A stretch of 64,000 nt of DNA, from contig KE546975.1 in assembly GCA_000442125.1 (NCBI GenBank), positions 372,001 through 436,000 of the forward strand. The letters run 5' to 3'. How positions within the stretch are numbered: the stretch's first letter is position 1; each line of letters opens with the position of its first letter. The notes under the pieces are model-generated. The model worked only from the letters and a program-made list of their open reading frames with translations. It did no database searches and was not told the origin of the DNA. Source of the DNA: Opeltia flavorubescens. Lineage: Eukaryota; Ascomycota; Lecanoromycetes; Teloschistales; Teloschistaceae. Positions 4,106 through 9,037 of this stretch are shown here, one piece after another. The position numbers and the translations under genes were made by a program.

Positions 4106-4394
4106 TCATGTTCCCGAACTTTTTGGTATACCAGAGCCTCCTGACGCAGCTAGATTGCCGCCAAAAGCGAGCTGGTTGAGGTTCATCCGTCCCATCTTTT
4201 CGGTTACTCCATTTGCTGTCATGCTAATATTAGTATTCGAGAGGTTTTCGTCTATCACCATGCTGCTTACTGGAAGCATTTACCCTCGCCCCACCTGTAG
4301 AAGGACACTTGTCGCACCGGGGATGCTTGCATTTCGAACACGTTGTTCCTGAAGCGTCGTTTGTGCGAGCGCAGACATGACAGACCCAAGACAT
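4106..4394 (-). CDS. small double-CxxC cysteine-rich protein, cluster member 1
   Basis: Too short for a long open frame, but the model closes: exon 1 is 4394-4271, a 55-base GT-AG intron is 4270-4216 (branch-like TACTAAT), exon 2 is 4215-4106; 77 residues. Residues 3-30 carry the core W3, C5, C8, C19, C22, H24, C27, C30 (WVCHVC...CSKCKHPRCDKC). The tail is glycine/serine/asparagine-rich and looks unstructured. Six Cys and one His could hold one or two zinc ions; metal binding is inference. No signal peptide, so probably cytosolic or nuclear. It shares the core and the phase-1 intron after it with the genes starting at 5648, 6865 and 8544. The core is recognisable as a recurring, uncharacterised ascomycete type; I know no function. 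Confidence 0.65.
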
Positions 4395-4806
4395 ATTGTT
4401 GATTTTAAGGCTAAGTCGACAACTGTGGAAGAGCCTTGCGTTCTTTCGGGGTCGAAGTCTTATTGGATGGACTGATGTTTACTGCTTGGCAAGCTCATGC
4501 TGCGGACGCTGGCTTATAATCAATTTATAGCCCTGGTGTGCCACATCAGACGTTGGAGGTTACACCCCAACTTATGTTTCCATTCTTACGTGGCATCTGA
4601 AACGAAGAACATATACCAAGCTCATCTTTGGGCTGTCGGCATTTCAATACTACAGCCGCGGATCGCAGAGGCAAACCAGACGCGACTTGTCACGGAAACC
4701 ACTATGGTTTGACACGAGTTGACAGCACCACGTTTGCTACTGACTGCTGTAGTTCATTGATGGCTAATCTTTGATCCGTTCCGAGGAATCTGTCTTCTGG
4801 TACTCA
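4395..4806. other. intergenic, no gene seen
   Basis: Spacer between cysteine-rich genes 1 and 2, both on the minus strand. It probably holds the promoter of gene 1. No conserved element could be recognised by eye. Confidence 0.45.
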
Positions 4807-5648
4807 CTAACCGATTGCTCTTCGTTTGTTTGACCTGCCGCGTGTATTGACCGTCGGTGACCTCCACCGCCCTGACGCCCTTACACCGGCCCGCTTCTCC
4901 GAAATTGCCTCATTCTTGTTCTTACAACGACTGTGGCCTTCTGAAAGAAGACTCAGCTCTGGGAGTGTTAATAACTCGCCGGTCGGTGGCCGATTTTGCG
5001 GGTACTTGCCGTCCTCGAACCCGTTTGCAGATGGAGAATCCGCTACCTCGGCTTTCCTCTTACGAGTCTTCGCTTTCCCAACTTGAATATCTTCTTCCAC
5101 TTTGATGTCTAGCTGTGGCTTCTTCAGACCGCGTTTCATCGACGGGGTCATTTGTTCAATGACTTCCTCAAAACCTAGACAGATTAAGTCCTTCCACTAC
5201 AAGCCATCGTCAAGAGAGCGTAAACTCACTTAACGCCGTCTCTGATGAATCATCTCTATCATTGCCGTGATTTGATACCGACCATCCTTCTTCAAGTCGA
5301 CGCTTCCTTTCGTACTCTAGCACAAGGTGAGTATTTGTGCTCGGCCCCACGGGCTCTCGTATGATAGGAACTCTGTCTGGGGCTATCGTCCATTTCAGTC
5401 TTCGCCTTCCTTTGGAACAGGATATATTCGGTGAAGGCTGTAAGTGAGGTGATTGAAAACGCAAACTTACTAAAGCCAGCCTCACACGACTCGATCGTAT
5501 CAATGACACAGGCATAGCAGAAATCGTGATGGCATTTAGGGCATCTGGTTGCCATGCAAAGAAGCGCCAAGTGTGTATGACAATGGCAACACTTCTGACA
5601 ACGTTGTTCTTTCCATATGACAGGAGATTGTGACCTACGAGGAGCCAT
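4807..5648 (-). CDS. double-CxxC cysteine-rich protein with long basic tail, cluster member 2
   Basis: Three exons (5648-5471, 5409-5230, 5174-4807), introns of 61 and 55 bases, both phase 1, closing to 241 residues. The Cys/His core lies at residues 17-47: C17, C20, C21, C23, C36, C39, H41, C44, C47. It matches the cluster pattern except that the Trp two residues before the first Cys is replaced by Gln, with an extra Cys at 17 and another Trp at 12. The rest is charged and low in complexity, with KTRKRKAEV and RGRSNKRRA resembling nuclear localisation signals. That suggests a nuclear protein, which is inference. A start at 5756 in the same frame is possible; 5648 was preferred because it begins MAPRRS, close before the core. 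Function unknown. Confidence 0.6.
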
Positions 5649-6281
5649 AATGAGGAGCTCTATGAACCTTCGCAATGAGCTTATTGTCCTAGCCTTTCTT
5701 TCCTTATGAGAATCTGGTTGCATGCAGGCAATGGAAAGATAAATGCATATTGTCAATCATTGCAAAAACTCTCAATCCTCTTTCCATCAACAATGATCCA
5801 ATTGTTGATTTAGGTGAAGCGAGTACTCAGTGGTGAATCGATTTTCCTGGACAGCATGATAAAGGTTTCCCTACTTATCATGCCTGTCTGACCGTTTGCA
5901 TTTCGTATATTTCTTGGAGTATCGTGGTATCGTGGTATCGTGGTGCTACCCTGTGAAAACGCGTGAGCGCGCGACGTTTTTACACCTCATCTTCAACGGC
6001 GTGTGGCACCCCTAAACCCATCACGGATAACGGACCAGCATGAAGTTCAAGCTAAGCTTGTATGCTTTTATTTCGCCTGTTTTCAGGTGATGGGTGGTCC
6101 ATTTTTATCATTATCATTGTCATTATGTTCCCCTCACCTGTGGAGGCTTCTATCCTATGCTGCACCCCAGGCCTTAAAGACTCCTCCAATTACCCACCAC
6201 GCTCAACCACCAGACCTCGAAGAAAGCCTTGGTAATAATGCTGCAACCTCTCCTTCGCTTCATGCAAAAAATTCTCACACA
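5649..6281. other. intergenic between cysteine-rich genes 2 and 3
   Basis: No gene seen. It contains a short perfect octamer repeat (5920-5943, listed separately) and pyrimidine-rich stretches, and presumably the promoter of cluster member 2. Confidence 0.45.
5920..5943. repeat. perfect tandem octamer, three copies of TATCGTGG
   Basis: Three back-to-back copies of an eight-base unit, about 270 bases upstream of the start of cysteine-rich gene 2. Its position would suit a small regulatory array, but a chance microsatellite is equally likely. Confidence 0.8.
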
Positions 6282-6865
6282 TCACGAGAAGCTCGCAAAA
6301 GTAACCTTCTTCCGACTCTTCAACGCACTACCCTCCTCCGTCACCTTGGCTTTCCCCTTCCCCTTTCCTCCCATAGTGAAAGCTCCATCTCCCGGCTCCT
6401 CCATCTTCCCCCCAATCGGCGGCGGCGGCGTCTTCGGTTCCTCCTTCCCGTCCGTCATCGTTGAGTCCGAAGCAGTCGCAGCTTCCCTTCTCTCCCTAAT
6501 TGCATCCCTCCTCAATTTGATCTCCTCCTTCAATTTCTTCTTACTCTGCTTCCCGCATTTCCCGTCGCATTTCTCCCGATCGCATTTGGGGACGTGGTAG
6601 CGTTCGAAGTGGTAGTTTTCTTCAGCTTCCCAGGCGGGCCTTAGGGGGATACGGTAGCGTTGTTCGTCAATGCCTGTGAGGAAAGGGGTTGTGGGTTAGC
6701 TTGGGCAACGAGTTGGGGATTTTGGGGGGAGGAGGAGGGGAGGAGTTTCTTACTGTCAGTGGTCATGTGGCATTTGCGACATCGTCGGTGGACGGCGCAG
6801 AAGTGGCAGATTGGGCTGTTGAAGCTTAACATGCCGTGATTGCAGTAGCAGCAGAACCAGCCCAT
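6282..6865 (-). CDS. double-CxxC cysteine-rich protein with second CxxxC patch, cluster member 3
   Basis: Two exons (6865-6754 and 6674-6282) around a 79-base intron, phase 1; 167 residues. The N-terminus is the core: W3, C5, C6, C8, C20, C23, H26, C29, C32 (WFCCYC...CHFC...CRKC). Here the Cys-to-His gap is one residue longer than in its neighbours. Exon 2 adds a conserved-looking globular piece (YRIPLRPAWEAEENYHFERY), a second metal-ligand-like patch H-x3-C-x4-C-x3-C (YHVPKCDREKCDGKC) and a long lysine/glutamate-rich helix. The tail is basic with four prolines in a row. It is the most elaborate of the five proteins. No signal peptide. Function unknown; zinc binding and a nucleic-acid or protein adaptor role are guesses. 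Confidence 0.68.
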
Positions 6866-7477
6866 GCTTGGGGAAAAATGATATTGATGGAGATGAGGAG
6901 TTGGATAAATATGATTGGAGGGTTGATGTGACGGTAAAAGGGAATCATATGGGATGATCTGAGGTATTGGTAGGTGCGATGGATGAAAGAAAGGGGTATT
7001 GGAAGGTGCGAAGACTTATCCGCATTATATATGGAATTGGAGATGTCCACATTCACATATAAGTGAAGTGATGCGCAGTTGAAGTGTCGATGAACATGAT
7101 GTAGTTCATATCAAATTTCGAAATGTCTTGCTTGTCAATTCAATTTGACTGAACAGGACCTTTGTTCAGCTGGGAGAATATAGTCGCATAAGTACTTTGA
7201 CCTGACAAATCTTGACGATATCTGTACAAGAGGAAGCAGCTTGGAAGACACGTACAAAATTCACTGGGACATCTCACAGGCTTATAGATATAGAACAAAG
7301 AAGACGGGGTATGGAAAAATCCTTCCACCAGCTGTGCGCATGTCACTCTTGAACATCAAATGCCAGCATACTACCTCCATCAAAGTTGCATGTAACAAAC
7401 AAACCTTTCTATAATCTCAAATATTCATCACGCAAGCCCTGATGTCTTCCCTATCATAATACACAATCTTCGACTCC
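6866..7477. other. intergenic, no gene seen
   Basis: Spacer between cysteine-rich genes 3 and 4, AT-rich in its first half. Small frames only; none carries the cluster motif. Confidence 0.45.
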
Positions 7478-7767
7478 CTAGACCCAGGTGCAATCGTGAC
7501 AATTCTCATGGCCGCATCCGACACAGTGTGTGGCACGACGAGAGGAGCTCCATACGCAACGACAACATTTCCACGTACCCGAGGCTGTGGCGATGTGGTT
7601 TCTTGTCAGCAGGCTGAATACTTGATTCGAATGAAAGATAATCTGAATAGATAAAGACGCCATCACCGCAAAAGGGAAGCATGACACTTACGCATCTGTC
7701 GAGGTCCTTCAAGGTATTCAAATTCCTCGTCTGGGTGACCGTTGGCTTTGATTGGAGATGACCACAT
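7478..7767 (-). CDS. 60-residue double-CxxC protein, cluster member 4
   Basis: Two exons (7767-7692, 7584-7478) joined across a 107-base intron, phase 1; 60 residues. Unusually for the cluster, the intron lies before the core. Exon 1 gives an acidic lead (GHPDEEFEYLEGPRQM). Exon 2 is almost only the core, W30, C32, C33, C35, C46, C49, H51, C54, C57, and stops three residues later (TWV). It shows that the Cys/His unit is the smallest shared element of the five genes. The start is the first ATG in a frame that splices in phase; without that exon an ATG at 7687 could open a longer, hydrophobic and less plausible N-terminus. Function unknown. Confidence 0.6.
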
Positions 7768-8543
7768 GTTAACGGCCGCGAAAGGAGTTCGAGGTAGTCA
7801 ATACTGTTGTGCGTGGAGATTGGATTCCGTGGAGATCAGAGGCAAAATGTTGACAGGATTTGCGAGGACGCAAATGAGGGAAATATTGAGATAGAGATTT
7901 GAATATAAAGGAAAGGACAAATGCTCTGCTAACAAAAGCGATCTTTTATACTTTATCCATGGACTCGTAAGACAAGGCAACAGCTATCGACATTACCTTG
8001 TTGGAATCACAGTGGGGATAGTTTCTGACCCATCGGTCGAGAAAACGCAGAGTGAATACCGTGATGACAAACGTTCTCCTTCACAATTAAATGCACAGGA
8101 GTCTCCTTGAAAGGATACAGCTGAACACCAGCGGCTCTTGATGTATCAGTGCACTGCAGAATCAAGTAATCCAACCGCTATGTGAAGCAAAATATATGAA
8201 TTCTGCTATTTCGGAAAGCTGCAGAAGTCACCACACACTGTCCACCAGCACTTAGAGGAGGATGGTGTGAAAATCGAGTCTGAGCCAACTTCCTATTGCA
8301 GAGAAATAAGCTTTTCTTCGATAAATTGCACTCGATATCCGTTGAATCATCATATAAAATCTGTAGATGCAAACTGGAGTAAGCACTTCCTAAATTCTTG
8401 TGTTTCACGTTCATCAATGGCGGCTATGACTCAAGGTCAAGAAAGCTGAGACTACCCACTTTGCAACTCGCTTTCTGACATGCCCAAATCTCAGATACAA
8501 ATACAACCAAGCAACCACTCACCTTGAGCTAATTCCTACAATN
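7768..8543. other. divergent intergenic region between cysteine-rich genes 4 and 5
   Basis: Head-to-head spacer of 776 bases, so it must hold the promoters of both flanking genes. No other gene seen. The ambiguous base at 8543 is immediately before the start codon of gene 5. Confidence 0.5.
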
Positions 8544-9037
8544 ATGTGCTGGAAATGCTGTAAATGCGGCGATAAAGCCAAGTTAACCCGGAATACTTGC
8601 CTATGCGATCACGAGATGTGCAAAACATGCGAAGTCGTGTCCCTTGGCGGAGAATGCCAAACCTATAGTATAGTCTATCCCGCCGATATTTCAAAGACAA
8701 TCTGAGCGAGCTGACCTTGACAAGTAATGTACATGAACCCTATGATGGGCATCTCCAGTCAGAAAGCCAGCGCAGGTGAGGATCTTCCTTTCTTGTGCAA
8801 ATCTTATTCGAGAACAAAAGTGCATACTGACAATCTCGGCATAATGTAGCAGGCGTGCCATATGAAGAAGCTCAGAAACGCTATCAATTGCAGCTATTGG
8901 TGGCATTGTGGAAGAACGAACAACCGGGCTTCTTGGAAGGAGATAGAGTTTGGTCGAGCGTGTGCTCAGATCTTGTAGATCAGGGCGAGGAAGCTGTCCT
9001 AGGAGCCTGGGAGCAGGATTCGGTCGACAGGAATTAG
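8544..9037 (+). CDS. double-CxxC cysteine-rich protein, cluster member 5
   Basis: Three exons (8544-8667, 8725-8775, 8850-9037) with introns of 57 and 74 bases, both phase 1 and both with CTGAC branch sites; 120 residues. Core at residues 3-29: W3, C5, C6, C8, C19, C21, H23, C26, C29. The third pair is CxC rather than CxxC. Exon 1 is 124 bases, exactly as in cluster member 1, and its intron falls 12 codons after the last core Cys. The C-terminal half is predicted helical (YEEAQKRYQLQLLVALWKN) and acidic. It is the only member on the plus strand. Unspliced, exon 1 would stop after 53 residues; the spliced model is preferred for its three clean junctions. Function unknown. Confidence 0.66.

Follow-up and report, generated by a model that had tools for sequence, protein, structure and literature searches.

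A tandemly duplicated family of small cysteine/histidine modules in the fungus Opeltia flavorubescens, with a predicted RanBP2-like half

Our analysis of 64,000 nucleotides of DNA from the ascomycete Opeltia flavorubescens (contig KE546975.1, positions 372,001 to 436,000; below, the window) showed that small genes lying next to noc2 belong to a family of cysteine/histidine modules that recurs in the same genome, including in tandem arrays on the contigs designated C6 and C1. The ligand positions of these modules are near invariant, the residue following the first cysteine is associated with the second half of the module, and upstream regions are enriched in TATA boxes and, in the arrays, in the heptamer ATGACTC. 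Our preferred, though still tentative, explanation is that the module is a RanBP2-derived mini-domain holding two zinc ions, which was duplicated in tandem as a free-standing intracellular micro-protein and most likely serves as a small adaptor that binds partners; inducible expression is suggested for the arrays on C6 and C1. Annotation easily overlooks genes of this size, and here a single genome carries about 51 modules or part-modules of one unit, many of them in arrays sharing a promoter element.

A family with near-invariant ligands

A pattern search of the window with a strict core, W-x-C-[CH]-x-C-x(10-11)-C-x(1-2)-C-x(1-2)-H-x2-C-x2-C, returned four cores (genes 1, 3, 4, and 5), versus none in 60 second-order Markov resamplings of the window; looser patterns returned five, again versus none in the same resamplings. 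All five window cores have C or H at motif position 2, the residue directly after the first cysteine. The extent of the family across the genome was assessed by own-genome protein searches, in which match counts are lower bounds. Relatives were found on contigs C1, C4, C5, C6, C16, and C20, and two window queries had no genome match beyond themselves. Within the window and 20 regions of 10 kb, which were taken around search matches and not at random, regular expressions identified 30 cores, 25 of them in 8 of the 20 regions and none in the other 12. A profile built from these 30 cores, and hence biased toward them, gave 56 hits of at least 9 bits in the same sequences, about 51 of which we judged by eye to be modules or part-modules. 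A weak match at C7:1528 kb (E value of 0.02) was rejected as a member, as no core was present there in the fetched regions.

On C6, an array of 32 modules in 29 open reading frames (ORFs), all on the plus strand and often 500 to 750 bp apart, extends over about 18 kb (C6:1663555-1681760). Nine of the 32 score below 15 bits, some are partial, and two carry a bare RanBP2 pattern; three further modules lie at C6:1,650-1,652 kb. On C1, five minus-strand tandem copies, one of them broken, occupy 2.6 kb (L047:735-3374, corresponding to C1:70735-73374), and the only repeats of at least 30 nucleotides in this array are the cores and one 30-nucleotide block. The suggestion of the first-pass annotation that the window holds a duplicated small module whose surroundings diverge is supported within this genome by the copies, the arrays, and the alignment described below, and the many similarly spaced, often clustered matches that it anticipated were indeed found there. 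The island itself has no special status, as bigger arrays exist elsewhere in the same genome.

We aligned 31 complete cores selected from 46 listed modules and window gene 5. Among the eight ligand columns, the first cysteine is kept in 30 rows, position 2 holds Cys in 24 rows and His in the other 7, the next two cysteine columns are kept in 31 rows each and the fourth in 30, and the histidine and the two final cysteines are kept in every row; the exceptions are a Trp in place of the first cysteine and a Gly in the fourth cysteine column, once each. Since the rows were picked for a complete core, all of them necessarily contain H-x2-C-x2-C. The tryptophan column holds W or F in 27 of the 31 rows, and pairwise identity is 68% or less. 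In four further modules, which score above 20 bits and were omitted from the alignment as variants, position 2 is likewise Cys or His.

When position 2 was left unspecified in the pattern, 41 modules were found. In 34 of these the second half is complete, with Lys replacing the His in one, and all 34 carry C or H at position 2. In the seven scored as lacking the second half, position 2 is Glu, Lys, Gly, or Gln in four (the Gln module probably falls outside the family; Glu or Lys is found in the two copies with the bare RanBP2 pattern) and Cys in three, namely, window gene 5, which was misread on account of its C-x-C spacing, and two modules that look truncated or degenerate. As scored, the association gives a Fisher value of 3.5e-4, which is not a clean probability because the copies are related. 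Together with the seven other ligands, position 2 makes eight, enough for two tetrahedral zincs, and the pattern thus suggests two zincs per module. In this scheme, zinc 1 would be held as in RanBP2 fingers, by the first cysteine, the cysteine at motif position 4, and the C-x2-C pair, and zinc 2 by the Cys or His next to the first cysteine, the histidine, and the last C-x2-C. Bare one-site copies standing beside two-site copies would form a natural series illustrating how a metal site may be added to a zinc domain.

Some copies are broken or lack ligands (C6:1680037, C6:1670015, and the C1 copy at L047:2602-2691), as would be the case if the family consisted mostly of nonfunctional relics of old duplications. 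However, the ligands are kept in nearly all aligned copies while neighboring residues vary, and ATGACTC is retained amid an otherwise differing context, which makes such a wholesale decay very unlikely.

A predicted RanBP2-like half

An AlphaFold2 model of the gene 4 core, computed with the 31-row alignment, reached a predicted local distance difference test (pLDDT) score of 90.2 and a predicted template modeling score of 0.57. Searched against PDB with Foldseek, it gave 204 matches with E values of up to 10; among the 50 listed, 22 are titled as Nup153, RanBP2/Nup358, or NZF fingers. The top RanBP2/NZF matches superpose at 0.4 to 0.6 Å over 24 to 25 columns with probabilities of 0.94 to 0.99 (E value of about 1), and they span only the first half of the core. 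By this model, the first 25 or so residues of the gene 4 core adopt a RanBP2-like ribbon fold, and the module consists of a RanBP2-like part and an added second half. Metal binding by the module is what the ligand pattern and the model would jointly predict.

RanBP2 fingers follow the pattern W-x-C-x(2-4)-C-x3-N-x6-C-x2-C and have no further ligands. This pattern without further ligands occurs in two C6 array members and in none of the 31 aligned cores. The family resembles RanBP2/NZF fingers (PF00641) in the modeled half fold of gene 4, in its W-x-C-x2-C ... C-x2-C run, and in those two bare copies; it differs in having C or H at position 2, an additional H-x2-C-x2-C, and Pfam scores below the cutoff. 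A bare array member missed the PF00641 gathering score with 21.3 versus 27 bits, and window gene 1 scored 8.3 bits. Ordinary RanBP2 fingers are few in this genome, with 3 of 12 matches above the cutoff, at two places. No cutoff was passed in the Pfam scans that print cutoffs; one scan over the 31 members gave E values only, and its best entries, when rescanned, were still below the cutoff. The earlier statement that the core is not a plain RanBP2, LIM, B-box, or RING pattern is therefore half right: no printed cutoff was passed, but the modeled half fold of gene 4 is RanBP2-like, and the bare pattern appears in two C6 members and in the first half of core 1, where H-x2-C-x2-C follows it. For gene 2, the model is weaker (pLDDT of 74.2), and no fold stands out among its matches (best probability, 0.35), which are to various ribbons at low probability; RanBP2-type entries make up 5 of the 50 listed, at probabilities of at most 0.13.

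Promoters, divergence, and the choice among explanations

Upstream regions were compared for a set of 43, from which a module lacking an upstream ATG was excluded and in which second modules of one ORF were also counted. TATA[AT]A[AG] is present in 20 of the 43, versus 3 of 46 long-ORF upstream regions and 17 of 363 control-region chunks, and TGACTC is present in 19 of the 43 versus 4 of the 46. Of 15 promoter motifs compared, those differing at a P value of 0.05 are three TATA forms and TGACTC; the other 11 (CGTCA, TGACG, CCAAT, GATA-like, and others) did not differ from the long-ORF upstream regions. Among 6,862 heptamers, ATGACTC ranks first in the C6 and C1 arrays, with ATGATGA a close second. 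It occurs 17 times in the C6 array and 7 times in the C1 array, versus 2.75 expected, and 29 times in 236 kb elsewhere; since the copies descend from one another, these sites are not independent, and their flanks vary from site to site. In three of the five C1 copies, including the broken one, ATGACTC lies 20 to 26 bp before TATATA. The element, which we take to resemble the Gcn4/AP-1 bZIP site, points to a single regulator and to an inducing condition that could be tested.

Six close pairs of copies show nonsynonymous divergence (dN) of 0.27 to 0.44, with synonymous divergence (dS) saturated in three. Outside the ligand columns, the dN/dS ratio is about 1 in two pairs (0.44/0.45 and 0.40/0.39), above 1 in one (0.52/0.24), and 0.2 to 0.35 in three with dS near 2.

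These observations bear on the main rival, in which the family would be a metal buffer that chelates zinc or copper in the manner of metallothioneins, tandem copies adding dose under stress while residues other than the ligands drift. Yeast CUP1 is a metallothionein tandem array and provides a precedent, and the arrays described here are likewise made of small, Cys-rich, inducible-looking tandem genes with TATA boxes and a bZIP-type site. Strong conservation limited to the ligands and an aromatic, together with non-ligand dN close to dS in two pairs, would fit this explanation as well. In contrast to metallothioneins, however, the family is modeled as a folded ribbon with a His and an aromatic; the regular spacings, an aromatic retained in most rows, and a compact model of high confidence are in keeping with structural zinc. 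Non-ligand dN is well under dS in three other pairs, and the copies are diverged rather than identical, unlike a recent dosage array. We consider a metal buffer possible but somewhat unlikely.

We thus return to the two-zinc adaptor and propose the following model for its origin. First, a RanBP2-type zinc ribbon would have gained a second zinc site. The resulting module would then have spread by tandem duplication as a free-standing intracellular micro-protein, in which the zinc scaffold stays fixed and the remaining surface may vary from copy to copy to fit different partners. Finally, the C6 and C1 arrays may be induced through the bZIP-type site and the TATA box. No hydrophobic leader was seen on inspection by eye. 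The adaptor or regulator role, already put forward in the first-pass annotation, may be the function of such a module. A bolder version, in which the mini-domain radiated into co-regulated single-domain binders, each copy reading a different partner as part of a fungal intracellular recognition system, is improbable.

Several results weigh against the adaptor model. No Foldseek match of the gene 4 model had an E value below 0.001, and eL40, MCM, rubrerythrin, and rubredoxin ribbons as well as RBM5 entries are also among the listed matches. In Pfam, a rubredoxin-like domain comes closest (24.8 bits versus a cutoff of 26.5), and by sequence the top PDB match is to the FYVE-like finger of synaptotagmin-like protein 4 (SLP4; 7.8e-5 and 0.0026) rather than to RanBP2, for which Cys-rich bias may be the explanation. 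Inspection by eye found no conserved Ran-, ubiquitin-, or RNA-binding signature. Pairwise dN/dS favors neither drift, constraint, nor diversification, so diversifying selection on the surface is not shown. With respect to induction, one of the five C1 copies has no upstream ATGACTC, and the C4, C5, and C16:640 kb copies have neither a TATA box nor ATGACTC within 330 bp. ATGACTC is not enriched in the window island either: its single occurrence lies 118 bp before gene 5, downstream of the TATA box of that gene, and none is found up to 330 bp upstream of genes 1 to 4.

The SLP4 match raises the prospect of truncated FYVE- or RING-like cross-brace domains with a role in ubiquitin or membrane pathways. 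The SLP4 finger (5x6t and 2csz) shares the C-x2-C ... C-x2-C-x-H-x2-C-x2-C run with the family, and weak matches to FYVE, IBR, and RING models were obtained in Pfam, all below the cutoff where cutoffs are printed. However, FYVE and FYVE_2 fingers have four pairs of ligands, eight in total, with the final C-x2-C lying downstream, whereas the family cores lack a fourth Cys pair, including the closing C-x2-C of RING (C3HC4) domains, and gene 4 stops three residues past its core. Neither SLP4 nor any entry titled FYVE or RING is among the 50 listed of the 204 fold matches of gene 4, and we regard this origin as highly improbable.

The eL40 and RBM5 matches instead bring to mind nucleic acid-binding fingers, either RanBP2-type fingers that bind RNA, as in ZRANB2 and RBM5, or zinc ribbons of the ribosome such as eL40. 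In favor of these, Asn, which is characteristic of RanBP2 fingers, is found more often than any other residue at its column (9 of the 31 rows). No basic or aromatic surface set is conserved across members, most ORFs hold one module, and tail charge varies. Nucleic acid binding is unlikely as the common function, and a RanBP2-derived two-zinc adaptor remains the reading that we favor.

The window island and scattered copies

The island had been described as five genes with one core, lying between sds22 and noc2. Four strict cores stand (Table 1), and gene 2 is a doubtful member: its ligand order fits, the W-x-C-x2-C start is missing, with a Trp 8 residues before the first aligned Cys, its nearest Pfam model is IBR_1 (18.3 bits versus a cutoff of 27), and it has no TATA box upstream. 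The proposed sizes of 77, 167, and 60 residues are backed by GT-AG introns with branch-like motifs (CTAAT in gene 1, where other acceptors or splice pairs are also possible). For gene 5, the proposed 120 residues represent one among 58 permissive intron models and require a CAAG acceptor. The tail of gene 3 is lysine-rich and carries a second Cys patch, and the gene 4 core is C-terminal. Noc2 flanks the island on one side (PF03715, E value of 4.9e-122); on the other, an exon with leucine-rich repeats is consistent with sds22 and not specific to it.

Table 1. Features of the window island. Positions are those of the window; scores are from a hidden Markov model (HMM), of which core 1 is itself a training sequence; aa, amino acids.
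Feature	Position	Strand	Description	TATA box upstream
Gene 1	4106..4394	-	77 aa; exons 4394-4271 and 4215-4106; intron 4270-4216	TATAAA, 135 bp
Core 1	4305..4388	-	C-H-x-C form; strict pattern; HMM 38.7 bits	
Gene 2 core	5508..5615	-	Looser-pattern match 5508-5600; ATG at 5648; HMM 21.2 bits	
Gene 3	6282..6865	-	167 aa; intron 6753-6674, GT-AG, CTAAC branch-like motif	TATATA, 166 bp
Core 3	6770..6859	-	Strict pattern; HMM 30.2 bits	
Gene 4	7478..7767	-	60 aa; intron 7691-7585, GT-AG, CTGAC branch-like motif	TATAAA, 183 bp
Core 4	7490..7573	-	Strict pattern; AlphaFold2 model, pLDDT 90.2	
Gene 5	8544..9037	+	Uninterrupted ORF to 8705 (53 aa); up to 120 aa with two introns	TATAAA, 191 bp
Core 5	8550..8630	+	Second Cys pair spaced C-x-C; HMM 26.9 bits	

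A search of PHROGs returned nothing at 0.01 for the 31 aligned members. No description of the family was found in the titles and abstract openings listed by searches of open-licence literature, which does not show that it is undescribed; similar CCQCGDGP-type proteins are presumably common among hypothetical proteins of the Pezizomycotina.

Outside the window, three C-H-x-C repeats with C-P-R endings lie in two adjacent open frames on C4 (L038:5107-6084), in a longer gene that is unlike the micro-genes. Two ORFs of the C6 array carry doubled modules ending in H-x6-C-x-C. On C16, a half core at L045:5016, the first half of which may be encoded by a separate exon, and a fragment at L045:6418 that resembles RanBP2 and has Gly at position 2 lie some 7 to 8 kb from a full copy in L051. 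Further candidates, each known from a protein-search match, are located at C6:57016-57120 and C20:57621-57677, in each case some 57 kb into the contig.

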